Assembly (NCBI GenBank): GCA_903889655.1 | Contig: CAISYL010000159.1 | Location: 1 to 32,965, forward strand | Direction: 5' to 3' | Length of the DNA: 32,965 bases | Source: an uncultured Alphaproteobacteria bacterium | GTDB taxonomy: Bacteria > Pseudomonadota > Alphaproteobacteria > Parvibaculales > Parvibaculaceae | Shown: piece after piece, positions 909-6,352 of the stretch | Layout of the letters: the number at the start of each line of letters is the position of its first letter | How positions within the stretch are numbered: the first letter of the stretch is position 1 | The notes under the pieces: generated by a model | Seen by the model: only the letters and a program-made list of their open reading frames with translations | Databases searched by the model: none | Told to the model about the DNA's origin: nothing | Position numbers and translations under genes: made by a program

Positions 909-985
909 GGTCCCGTAGCTCAGCTGGATAGAGCAACGGATTTCTAATCCGTCGGTCACAGGTTCGAATCCTGTCGGGATCACCA
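909..985 (+). tRNA. tRNA-Arg(TCT), CCA encoded
   Basis: Acceptor GGTCCCG/CGGGATC, anticodon arm ACGGA-TTTCTAA-TCCGT (anticodon TCT), T arm CAGGTTCGAATCCTG, terminal CCA. Confidence 0.96.
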
Positions 986-2004: not shown

Positions 2005-2847
2005 ATGGATACACGACACAACATCGCGGAAATCGCGCCGCATGGCGTCGGCCCGCTTCTGCGCCGCTGGCGGGAATCCCGCCATCTGAGCCAGCTCGGT
2101 CTCGCGCTCGAAGCGGAAGTTTCGGCCCGGCATATCAGCTTCGTCGAAACGGGCCGGGCGACGCCCAGCCGCGAAATGCTGCTGACACTCTCGAACGTAC
2201 TCGACGTGCCGCTGCGTGAGCGGAATGTGCTGCTGCAGGCGGCGGGCTATGCGCCGGTCTATCGCGAGACGAGCCTCGACGATCCACGCATGGCGCAGGT
2301 GCGAACCGCGCTCGACCTGATACTGAAGCAGCACGAACCGCGCAGTGCGATCTGCTTCGATCGCCACTGGAATCTGGTGATGGTCAACAAGGCCTATGCG
2401 CGATTGATGATCGCTGCCTTCGGTCACGAAATCCCGGGGCTCGAACCCATGACGCTTCTCGCCCGGGGAAAGTTCAATCTGCTGAAACTGCTTTTCGAGC
2501 CCGACGGCATTCGCAAGTTCATCGTCAATTGGGAACCGCTTGCCAAGGCGCTCATCAACGAGGCCTACCAGAGCGCAAGTTGGGCCCGCGATGAAACGAT
2601 GCAGCGGCTGATCGCGGAGGTGCTCGCCTATCCCGGAGTGTCGACGCGCTGGCGCGAACCCGATCTCGAAGCGCCGCAGGCGCTGATGTTGCCCTTCGAG
2701 ATGAAGATCGGCGACAGCGTCGCCCGCTTCTTCAGCACGGTCACGACCCTCGGCAAGCCTCAGGACGTGACCTTGCAGGAGTTGCACATCGAAGCCTTCT
2801 ATCCCGCCGATGCGACGACGGAGGCCCTGACGCTTCTGCCGGAATGA
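2005..2847 (+). CDS. Helix-turn-helix transcriptional regulator with MmyB-like ligand-binding domain
   Basis: N-terminal XRE-type HTH (GPLLRRWRESRHLSQLGLALEAEVSARHISFVETGRATPSREMLLTLSNVLDVPLRERN), then an MmyB-type domain (HWNLVMVNKAYARLM). Confidence 0.92.
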   Translation: MDTRHNIAEIAPHGVGPLLRRWRESRHLSQLGLALEAEVSARHISFVETGRATPSREMLLTLSNVLDVPLRERNVLLQAAGYAPVYRETSLDDPRMAQVRTALDLILKQHEPRSAICFDRHWNLVMVNKAYARLMIAAFGHEIPGLEPMTLLARGKFNLLKLLFEPDGIRKFIVNWEPLAKALINEAYQSASWARDETMQRLIAEVLAYPGVSTRWREPDLEAPQALMLPFEMKIGDSVARFFSTVTTLGKPQDVTLQELHIEAFYPADATTEALTLLPE

Positions 2848-2848
2848 C

Positions 2849-3319
2849 TCACGTCCGTCCGAAGAAACGCCGCGCGATCAGATAATCGAGCGACAGCGGG
2901 CCCGCGCCGCGCGTGATGATCGGAAGCAGCAGCGCCGTCCAGACGAGATGATCGGGCCAGTTCTCGGGATAGACGAAGGTCTGGATGACGAGCGTCATGC
3001 CGAGCATCGCGGCGGCGGCAAAGCGTGCGCCGAAGCCGACGAGCAATAATACTGGCGCCGCGAGTTCGACGGTCGCCGCCAATGTCGCAGCGATATCCGG
3101 CGGCAATAGCGGCACGTTGTATTCGCTGGCGAAGAGCGCAACCGTAGCATCCCAGCTTGCGATCTTGACGAGGCCGGAGCGGAAAAAGACGACGCCGATC
3201 GCAATGCGGAACAGCAATTGCAGCAGCGGCAGCGGAACATTTTCGAGAAGATCGAACGCTTGCCGAAGAAGCAGCACAGGGCGGGTAAACGGGGGGGAAG
3301 CCGGGCGGGTCATGGACAT
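2849..3319 (-). CDS. DoxX family membrane protein (BufD-like) in a bufferin operon
   Basis: Multi-TM DoxX signature (LLFRIAIGVVFFRSGLVKI...FGARFAAAAMLGMTLVIQTFVYPENWPDHLVW). Downstream of bufC-like gene on the same strand. Confidence 0.85.
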   Translation of the reverse strand: MSMTRPASPPFTRPVLLLRQAFDLLENVPLPLLQLLFRIAIGVVFFRSGLVKIASWDATVALFASEYNVPLLPPDIAATLAATVELAAPVLLLVGFGARFAAAAMLGMTLVIQTFVYPENWPDHLVWTALLLPIITRGAGPLSLDYLIARRFFGRT

Positions 3320-3331
3320 GGGTTCGTTCCT

Positions 3332-4120
3332 TCAGGAGTGAGCGGGGAGGAGGTGGCCAATGAAAAGACCGGAGGCGAGGAGTTCTGCGCAGAAGCCGCC
3401 GGCGTCGAATTCATGATACGGGACCTGCGCAGCAGCCAGGCGAGCGGCTTGAGCGAGCGTCTGCATGTCGAGAATGGCTGCGACGAAGGCAGCCTCCGCC
3501 GGTTCGAGGACACGCCAGACCACGTCGAGATCGCGCCGCCAGACCAGCAGCGAGACGCCGCCGCTACCGAGATCGATGGTGAGCGTCGGATCGGCATCCG
3601 GCTGGTTCGCGCGCCAGATGTCGAGAACGGGAAAAGACGATGAGACCAGTCGCGCCGACGGATGTGGCGCAAGAACGAGTTCGCCTTGCAGAGTCGCAGG
3701 TATGGCATCGAACGCCGCCGCGTCTTCCGGCATGGCGTCATCGGCATGGAAGGCGTGATTGATGGCCCATTCGAGAGCCCCCACGTCGGCGAGATAGGCG
3801 AAATCGGCGGAAGCGGTGAGGCCGGCCAGGAAAGCCGGAAAGGCTTCGCCATAGTGCGCCAGCATGGCGACACGTGGCGGCTCTTCGGCGGAGAAACGTC
3901 GTGCCGCCCGGTCGAAATAGGCCTCGCCGACCAGCTTCTGCAGCACCGGAAAGGTCGCTGCGAGTGCACCGGCCAGCGAAATCAGGAAATTGTTGCGGTA
4001 GATCTGAAGACGCTGCGCCGGGGCAATTCCATAAGCGCTCACGATCCCGGAAATTTCCGCGCCGTCGTCGGCGACGATGGCGCGGATGAAAGCGGCTTGA
4101 ATATCAGCGAGAGATCGCAT
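3332..4120 (-). CDS. DUF2063 family protein, MNIO partner (BufC-like)
   Basis: MRSLADIQAAFIRAI...RLQIYRNNFLISLAGALAATFPVLQKLVGEAYFDRAARRF is the DUF2063 N-terminal signature. Start chosen at ATG 4118-4120, overlapping the upstream MNIO gene by 17 nt. Confidence 0.88.
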   Translation of the reverse strand: MRSLADIQAAFIRAIVADDGAEISGIVSAYGIAPAQRLQIYRNNFLISLAGALAATFPVLQKLVGEAYFDRAARRFSAEEPPRVAMLAHYGEAFPAFLAGLTASADFAYLADVGALEWAINHAFHADDAMPEDAAAFDAIPATLQGELVLAPHPSARLVSSSFPVLDIWRANQPDADPTLTIDLGSGGVSLLVWRRDLDVVWRVLEPAEAAFVAAILDMQTLAQAARLAAAQVPYHEFDAGGFCAELLASGLFIGHLLPAHS

Positions 4121-4985
4121 GATGGCCCTCTCTGCCACCGAGCGCGCGGCGGGCATCGGCACGCGCCGCCTCCGCGACCAGTGTTTCAAGTTCGGGAATG
4201 TTGCTATCCCATTCGATGAGCGTGGCGGCATCGGAAAAGAGCGCGACGGCGTCGTCGTAAAGCGACCAGACCGGATCGCTGACGGGGCCGCCATGATCGT
4301 CGATCAGAAGCGCGGTGCCGCCGATATCCTTCGAGGCATGGCCCGCGAGATGGATTTCCTTGACCGGCGCGCCCGCGAAATCTGCAAGCTCTGCCTTCGG
4401 ATCGCGACCGAGATTGATGGCACTCACGAAAATGTTATTGACGTCGAGGAGAAGTGCGCAGCCCGAGCGCCTTGCAAGCTCTATAAGGAATTCCGGCTCG
4501 GTCATCGGCGAATGGGAAAAGCCGAGATAGACGGATGGATTTTCGATCAGGATCTGGCGGCGCAATTCCATCTGCATGCGGTCGATATTTTCAGCGACGA
4601 TGCCAAGCGCCTCTTCCGTGTAGGGCAGCGGCAGCAGATCATTCAGATAGAGGCCGGGCAGGCCGGACCAGGACAGATGTTCGGACACGAAAAGCGGCTC
4701 GATGCGGTCGGCGAGGCGGACGAGACGTCCGAGATGAGCCTTGTCGATCCCCTCTACGGAGCCCAGCGAAAGACCGACACCGTGAAGAGAGACCGGCCAT
4801 TCACGACGTGCCGCGTCGAGATGATGGAAGGCGGGACCGCCACCCATATAGTTTTCGCCATGAATTTCGAGCCAGCCGACATCCGGACGGGAGGCGACGA
4901 TCTCGGCATGGTGCCGGGCGCGGAGCCCGATTCCCGTGCGCCGCAGGGGGGCAGAGGCGCAGTGCTGAGTATACGTCGTTTGCAT
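4104..4985 (-). CDS. DUF692 multinuclear non-heme iron oxidative enzyme (MNIO, BufB-like)
   Basis: GIGLRARHHAEIVASRPDVGWLEIHGENYMGGG...HGVGLSLGS...SEHLSWSG...IENPS...LLLDVNNIFVSAINLG...EIHLAGHA...LIEWDSNIPEL: typical DUF692 His/Asp/Glu motifs. Confidence 0.93.
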   Translation of the reverse strand: MQTTYTQHCASAPLRRTGIGLRARHHAEIVASRPDVGWLEIHGENYMGGGPAFHHLDAARREWPVSLHGVGLSLGSVEGIDKAHLGRLVRLADRIEPLFVSEHLSWSGLPGLYLNDLLPLPYTEEALGIVAENIDRMQMELRRQILIENPSVYLGFSHSPMTEPEFLIELARRSGCALLLDVNNIFVSAINLGRDPKAELADFAGAPVKEIHLAGHASKDIGGTALLIDDHGGPVSDPVWSLYDDAVALFSDAATLIEWDSNIPELETLVAEAARADARRALGGREGHHAISR

Positions 4986-5018
4986 GGAAGGCTCCCGTCC
5001 GGTGCCGCGGGGTTGCTG

Positions 5019-5282
5019 TTAGCCGAGAACCTTGCCGCCGACGATCTTGGCGCAGGTGCCGGCGGGCACGAAGATCCACGAATCGGCCTGAGCATCCTTG
5101 GAGGCCGTGCCGGCGCAGGAATGCATCGCCGTCTGGCAGTCGTTCAGGCCGGCCTTCGCAATGCCCGAGCACTTTTCGAACTTGTAGGCGGGCGGCGTCG
5201 CCGGGCCGGCGAAAGCGACGGTGGCGGCGGAAACGGAAACGATAGCGGCGATGGCCGAAGCGGCGATATACGAGGTTTTCAT
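5019..5282 (-). CDS. DUF2282/BufA1-type bufferin metallophore precursor
   Basis: 87 aa: signal peptide ([26 protein letters not shown]), then [48 protein letters not shown] with four Cys (38, 49, 56, 77). RBS GGAAGGA upstream of ATG. The 161-aa track ORF includes upstream extension. Confidence 0.9.
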
Positions 5283-5406
5283 GATATGTCCTTCCGGATG
5301 GGGTTGAGCTTTGGCGGTCGCCGCGGGCCGGAAACATCGTTGAGAACCGCGTCGAACCGTGACCAGACAATGCCGGCCGGCACGACGAAGCTGAAATACC
5401 GACTGC

Positions 5407-5451
5407 TTATGGTTTCGATGCATGGCGGTTATGGACCGGCGGGACAGGTCC
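5407..5451. promoter_or_regulatory. Candidate LysR-type operator region
   Basis: TTATGG direct repeats at 5407-5412 and 5429-5434 (22 bp spacing), plus interrupted dyad GGACC-N9-GGTCC at 5433-5451, in the bufA/lysR divergent intergenic region. Confidence 0.35.
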
Positions 5452-5470: not shown

Positions 5471-6352
5471 ATGGAACTGCATCAGGTCCGCTATTTCCTC
5501 GCATTGTGCGAAAGCCTCAACTTCACGCGCGCGGCCGAACTCTGCAATGTGAGCCAGCCGGCGCTGACGCGCGCAGTCCAGAAACTTGAGGAGGAATTCG
5601 GTGGTCCGCTGTTCCGGCGGGAGCGCGCGAAGACGCATCTCACCGATCTCGGCCGCCTGCTCAGGCCCTATCTCGAAGCCGCCTATCAGGCGAGCGAGAC
5701 CGCGCGGACGCAGGCGGCGAGTTTCGGAAAACTGGAAACGGCGCCCCTCAGTCTCGGCATCATGTGCACCATAGGGCCGTCCCGTCTTGTCGGTGTGCTT
5801 GGCGCGCTGCAGAACCAGGTGCCGGCCCTCCAGGTCGGCGTCGAGGAGGCGCGCGGCGCCGAACTCGTGCAGAGACTTGAAGACGGCAAGATCGACGTCG
5901 CCTTCGTCGCGCATCCGGATTACCCGGAACGTCTGGACCCGAAGCCGCTCTACAGCGAGCGGTATGTCGTGGCCTTTCCGCACGGCCATCGCTTCGAGCA
6001 GATGAACGCGGTGGCCTTCGACGATCTCGATGGCGAGGATTACGTCGAGCGGATCAATTGCGAATTTCCGGAGCATTTCGAGGCGCTGGGGCTTCAGGAC
6101 AATTCGCTGGTCAATGTCCGTTATCGGAGCGACCGCGAGGACTGGGTGCAGGCGATGATCCTCGCGGGCATGGGCTGCACCGTCATTCCCGAATTCATGC
6201 CGCTGATGCCCGGCATCTCGACGCGGTTGATCGTCGAACCCGAAGTGACCCGGACCATCAGCCTCGTCACCGTCGCCGGCCGCCGCTTCTCGCCGGCGGT
6301 ACAGGCCCTCATCAAGCTGATACAAAAGCAGAAATGGACCGGCATCGCCTGA
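5471..6352 (+). CDS. LysR family transcriptional regulator
   Basis: [61 protein letters not shown]: canonical LysR wHTH, followed by a substrate-binding domain. Confidence 0.95.

Follow-up and report, generated by a model that had tools for sequence, protein, structure and literature searches.

The window, as we call the whole 32,965-nucleotide stretch analysed here, carries a complete bufA-bufB-bufC-bufD operon on its minus strand (5282-2849), with a lysR gene lying divergent from bufA (Table 1). Re-derivation of coordinates and order bore out the four packed minus-strand genes described in an earlier note, in the order BufA1-MNIO-DUF2063-DoxX, with spacings of 33 nt (bufA-bufB), -17 nt (bufB-bufC) and 12 nt (bufC-bufD); the claimed 17-nt overlap of bufB and bufC is real. 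Comparison of the four proteins with HMMs for DUF2282, DUF692, DUF2063 and DoxX placed all of them far over the curated cut-offs, so these family assignments are not due to chance. The proposed pairing of an MNIO with a DUF2063 protein also held; BufB passed the NCBIfam equivalog NF050167 MNIO_BufB ('MNIO family bufferin maturase'; 355.8 bits, cut-off 310) and BufC scored over the DUF2063 cut-off. DUF2282 and MNIO genes each occurred once in the whole 4.36-Mb alphaproteobacterial genome. The earlier description of the operon as complete was correct for the bufABCD core and missed the divergent lysR gene and a conserved upstream element; since both appear to belong to the system, it is larger than first stated. 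A single nucleotide separates the end of bufD from an XRE/MmyB-type gene that runs towards it, and a tRNA-Arg (tct) gene lies ~1.9 kb beyond the operon end. tRNA genes are common integration points.

Table 1 Features of the lysR-bufABCD locus and its downstream flank in the window
Feature	Position	Strand	Description
tRNA-Arg (tct)	909..985		tRNA gene
XRE/MmyB-type gene	2005..2847	+	Convergent with bufD
bufD	2849..3319	-	156 aa; membrane protein of the DoxX family; closes the operon; PF07681 65.7 bits, cut-off 23.6
bufC	3332..4120	-	262 aa; DUF2063 partner with RRE-like C-terminal part (PME type 1); PF09836 87.6 bits, cut-off 27.2
bufB	4104..4985	-	293 aa; MNIO (former DUF692) bufferin maturase; PF05114 (MbnB_TglH_ChrH) 320.9 bits, cut-off 25
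bufA	5019..5282	-	87-aa Buf1 (DUF2282) precursor; PF10048 81.2 bits, cut-off 22.4
Predicted LysR site	5393..5434	+	42 bp; GAAAT-N19-GAT-N10-TATGG, T-N11-A box within 5417-5434
lysR	5471..6352	+	Divergent from bufA; HTH_1 70.1 bits, LysR_substrate 114.8 bits, both over cut-off

The bufferin core

Sequence comparison confirmed the operon as a canonical Buf1 bufferin operon. Its core is already a known kind, because its protein families and their gene order agree with those of published Buf1 clusters, which comprise a DUF2282 precursor, an MNIO, a DUF2063 partner and DoxX and in which the bufABC order is strictly conserved (Antoine et al. 2025, PMC12452194). Buf1 precursors carry Sec signals and four cysteines, of which the central ones are modified and the outer two form a disulphide (PMC12452194), and both 5-thiooxazole formation and copper binding have been described for related clusters (Gadgil et al. 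2026, PMC13097082). The suggestion that the locus is an under-characterised system was not upheld, given that the class already has published thiooxazole chemistry and a copper function. With the Caulobacter vibrioides CC3254-CC3257-type Buf1 system it shares a DUF2282 precursor with four Cys and an apparent Sec-type signal, the MNIO, the DUF2063 partner, DoxX and the order bufABCD; it differs in that NrsF was not detected in the genome, where a divergent LysR gene and a conserved element are found instead. The oxazolin/fontiphorin-type captophorin systems HvfABC and FonABC likewise pair an MNIO and a DUF2063 partner with a Sec-type Cys-rich precursor (PMC13097082), but their precursors have EGKCG repeats whereas that of the window belongs to DUF2282, and the window proteins scored under the cut-offs of HvfB-, HvfC- and HvfX-type models.

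The precursor proved to be as first described in length, in its four Cys and in its DUF2282 assignment, and its N-terminus, read by eye, looks Sec-type (charged start, hydrophobic stretch, AFA|G at residues 23-26). Cys38, Cys49, Cys56 and Cys77 align with the four Cys conserved in a 46-sequence homologue alignment, in which BufA also keeps the conserved EKC-x-G motif, N47 and the CAG motif; Ser39 occupies a position where nearly all other sequences have Tyr or Phe. By analogy with characterised precursors, modification is predicted at the two central residues, Cys49 and Cys56. A PDB sequence search with BufA returned no solved relative. BufB departs from the 95%-conserved positions of 42 MNIO sequences only at P->A254 and, by alignment, keeps the His, Glu and Asp positions common to the solved MNIOs 3bww, TglH and MbnB. 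A PDB sequence search gave no match for BufC either, and the only strong PDB matches to its AlphaFold2 model (pLDDT 87.3) in Foldseek were the top-ranked TglI (8hci/8hi7) and NGO1945 (3dee); these modelled fold matches support a role as DUF2063+RRE partner.

BufB MNIO homologues also turned up on 351 plasmid records; 73 of these carry the label Escherichia, and some are conjugative. At four loci of the window's own taxonomic family (L022, L024, L030 and L035), which are without LysR, bufA adjoins a gene resembling glutamate synthase by eye; the element described below was absent from their bufA upstream regions.

The divergent LysR gene: neighbourhoods, cysteines and origin

lysR and bufA are separated by a 188-bp intergenic region. 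In a scan of named genomes, the closest relatives of the regulator (56-59% identity) were found in Azospirillum, where five loci have LysR divergent from a complete bufABCD; plasmid p3 of A. brasilense MTCC4039 is annotated with the same five genes in this arrangement. The Azospirillum loci share the gene set, divergent layout and upstream element with the window; most of the proteins are only 47-57% identical, and BufC only 31-38%. They differ in having a more perfect palindrome (see below), and are unannotated as a regulated bufferin operon.

Across 385 genomes of the class, a close LysR homologue (E <= 1e-55) was detected in 30, and in 11 of these, the window's genome included, a DUF2282 gene lay within 10 kb of it. 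The chance expectation for such proximity is <1 genome, as estimated from the occurrence of DUF2282 in 135/385 genomes and a 20-kb span being ~0.5% of a genome. The regulator is not specific to buf, since in most of the genomes that carry it no buf operon lay within 10 kb. Elsewhere it accompanies recurring genes for 3-hydroxybutyrate dehydrogenase, patatin, peroxiredoxin-like, cupin, MFS and DUF302 proteins, and bufABCD sometimes lies inside the same LysR island, for example in Rhizobium bangladeshense. No island cupin was detected in the window's genome, and a literature search on the wider island returned nothing relevant. Two neighbourhoods were of a different kind. At L117, a distant MNIO (31% identity; 2003-2839) lies directly upstream of the LysR homologue (2902-3804) and no DUF2282 gene was detected; this MNIO may be part of another kind of MNIO peptide cluster. 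In Neomegalonema genomes (L008), a close LysR homologue adjoins not a buf operon but a gene for a small secreted 127-aa protein (4031-4414), which resembles a DM13-type domain by eye.

The solved structures nearest to LysR were OxyR of C. glutamicum (6g1b) and P. aeruginosa (4x6g). Alignment places Cys197 at the peroxidatic Cys position of C. glutamicum OxyR; 42/44 homologues keep it, and all 44 keep Cys25 in the HTH domain. No second conserved redox Cys was found in the resolving region, where LysR has Gly207 and only 6/44 homologues have Cys. The regulator thus resembles OxyR at the peroxidatic position but lacks a conserved resolving Cys and falls far under the OxyR equivalog cut-off (115 bits versus 329), and an identity as OxyR was rejected on these two grounds. 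From the residue pattern, it is possible that this LysR is a one-Cys thiol sensor.

Neither the MNIO tree nor the distribution of LysR supported a vertical descent of the operon within the genus. In that tree, the window's BufB was excluded from a group formed by 16 MNIOs of its taxonomic family (83/85 support; in 95% of bootstrap trees) and was nearest by path to LysR-linked MNIOs, and LysR (E <= 1e-45) was found in 0/24 other genomes of the genus, some of which are incomplete. Together, the tree and the absence of LysR from the genus suggest that lysR and bufABCD were acquired as a pair from outside the family, a reading limited by the incomplete genomes.

A conserved element between lysR and bufA

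Alignment of the lysR-bufA intergenic regions revealed a conserved block with the palindrome CATAGCCGNCGGCTATG in most Azospirillum loci. Upstream regions of other LysR genes carry the same palindrome, usually with GAAAT ahead of it at a fixed distance, giving the general form GAAAT-N19-SAT-N10-TATGG with a LysR-type T-N11-A box. The window's copy, a predicted LysR site, lies 36 bp ahead of lysR and 110 bp ahead of bufA. A first, palindrome-only matrix did not pick this site, because its left half is degenerate; a longer matrix did. This 42-column matrix was built from 12 training sites that excluded the window and were drawn from an earlier matrix search (2/12 without the GAAAT part). It scored the window's site at 24.7 bits, the best in the 33 kb, against 10.7 bits at the next place and a maximum of 14.6 bits in ten random 33-kb sequences.

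The matrix was then run over the 400 bp upstream of bufA genes. Non-training sites were recovered at L107 (21.8 bits), L097 (21.5), L115 (21.2), L120 (14.9) and L104 (11.4), and whole-locus scans placed further sites just upstream of bufA at L153 (30.7) and L155 (20.3); all seven genomes have LysR, but not directly divergent from bufA. In 25 control regions upstream of bufA at loci without adjacent LysR, the element was absent (best 3.0 bits). Where found within 400 bp, it lay 65-160 bp before bufA in a single orientation; no good site occurred within 400 bp upstream of bufA at four LysR-linked loci (L098, L102, L017 and L112).

Across the window's genome, the site in Table 1 was the sole occurrence both of the exact pattern and of the longer form with one mismatch allowed; since the alignment that yielded the short pattern included the window, this uniqueness is partly post hoc. 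Cleaner tests are provided by the matrix trained without the window and by the comparison of bufA upstream regions. As a class-wide marker, the plain pattern GAAATN19SATN10TATGG was rejected as unspecific, because 75/385 genomes match it, mostly at other places, and many matches across the class arise by chance; the specificity of the element comes from matrix score and position. A wider regulon in the window's genome was likewise not supported, as one site only was found. On plasmid pSM-1 of Skermanella mucosa (L121, 10789-10853), the space between the cupin and 3-hydroxybutyrate dehydrogenase genes holds two overlapping copies in opposite orientation (47.4 and 37.3 bits). They are ~4 kb away from the LysR gene and suggest that this island, too, is under the control of the regulator.

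Control of the operon and its probable role

Published control of buf operons runs through ECF sigma factors: in Caulobacter through sigma-F and its anti-sigma NrsF, which has two Cys (PMC3511200), and in S. meliloti through RpoE7 (PMC6180224). NrsF had no match in the window's genome, and the Caulobacter positive control was detected. A LysR regulator linked to DUF2282/MNIO operons was not found in the literature searched, which left out most subscription papers and all supplements; the regulatory arm is a variant for which no report was found in the accessible literature, attached to a known bufferin core.

We consider it quite probable, from sequence comparison, that the locus is a canonical Buf1 bufferin operon of the copper type, controlled by the divergent LysR instead of sigma-F/NrsF. 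BufA would be made with a Sec signal, and the BufB (MNIO)-BufC (DUF2063/RRE) complex would turn its central Cys, probably Cys49 and Cys56, into thiooxazoles, presumably in the cytoplasm. The modified peptide would then be exported by Sec and, once in the periplasm, bind a thiophilic metal, with copper as the likeliest; metal buffering is a role that we carry over from characterised relatives. DoxX would act as an accessory membrane protein whose role is unsettled. LysR is predicted to bind the element between lysR and bufA and may induce bufABCD under thiol-active stress (metal or oxidant), possibly via Cys197.

A bufferin directed mainly at another thiophilic metal (gold, mercury or cadmium), or at oxidant stress, seems unlikely to us but keeps some weight, since gold induces the related 'gig' operons and fusions of MerC with bufferins are known (PMC12452194), relatives in Caulobacter show a response to Cr and Cd (PMC3511200), and the LysR family also stands beside peroxiredoxin-like and cupin genes. 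Against this, direct evidence on DUF2282 products has so far concerned copper (PMC12452194). That LysR is a chance neighbour, with the element serving only its autoregulation and buf under other control such as an unlinked ECF sigma, is in our judgement improbable. The absence of a nearby buf operon from most LysR-bearing genomes would fit it, as would ECF sigma control of buf operons elsewhere (PMC3511200, PMC6180224), but the divergent pairing is kept across Azospirillum and NrsF was not detected here. The element also stands ahead of bufA in several genomes that lack a directly divergent lysR, which likewise speaks against a chance neighbour. Least credible, and very improbable, is a decaying acquisition from which a functional product is no longer made: an MNIO outside its own family's clade, as expected for transfer, and an operon in single copy are compatible with decay, but none of the four frames is broken, and both the conserved positions and the upstream element persist.

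Returning to the copper-type, LysR-controlled operon, a broader proposition, on which our judgement is evenly divided, is that a LysR family with one conserved sensor-position Cys directly senses a thiophilic metal or oxidant and controls alphaproteobacterial bufferin operons via a 42-bp operator replacing sigma-F/NrsF. The same family would connect bufferins with a broader stress-related set (peroxiredoxin-like, cupin, MFS, 3-hydroxybutyrate dehydrogenase and patatin genes). The regulator and element offer a direct, cheap test of the signal inducing a bufferin operon; they also predict where else in this class of operons the same control applies. The LysR gene and its site-like DNA mark a group of bufferin operons seemingly induced by a route other than that described.
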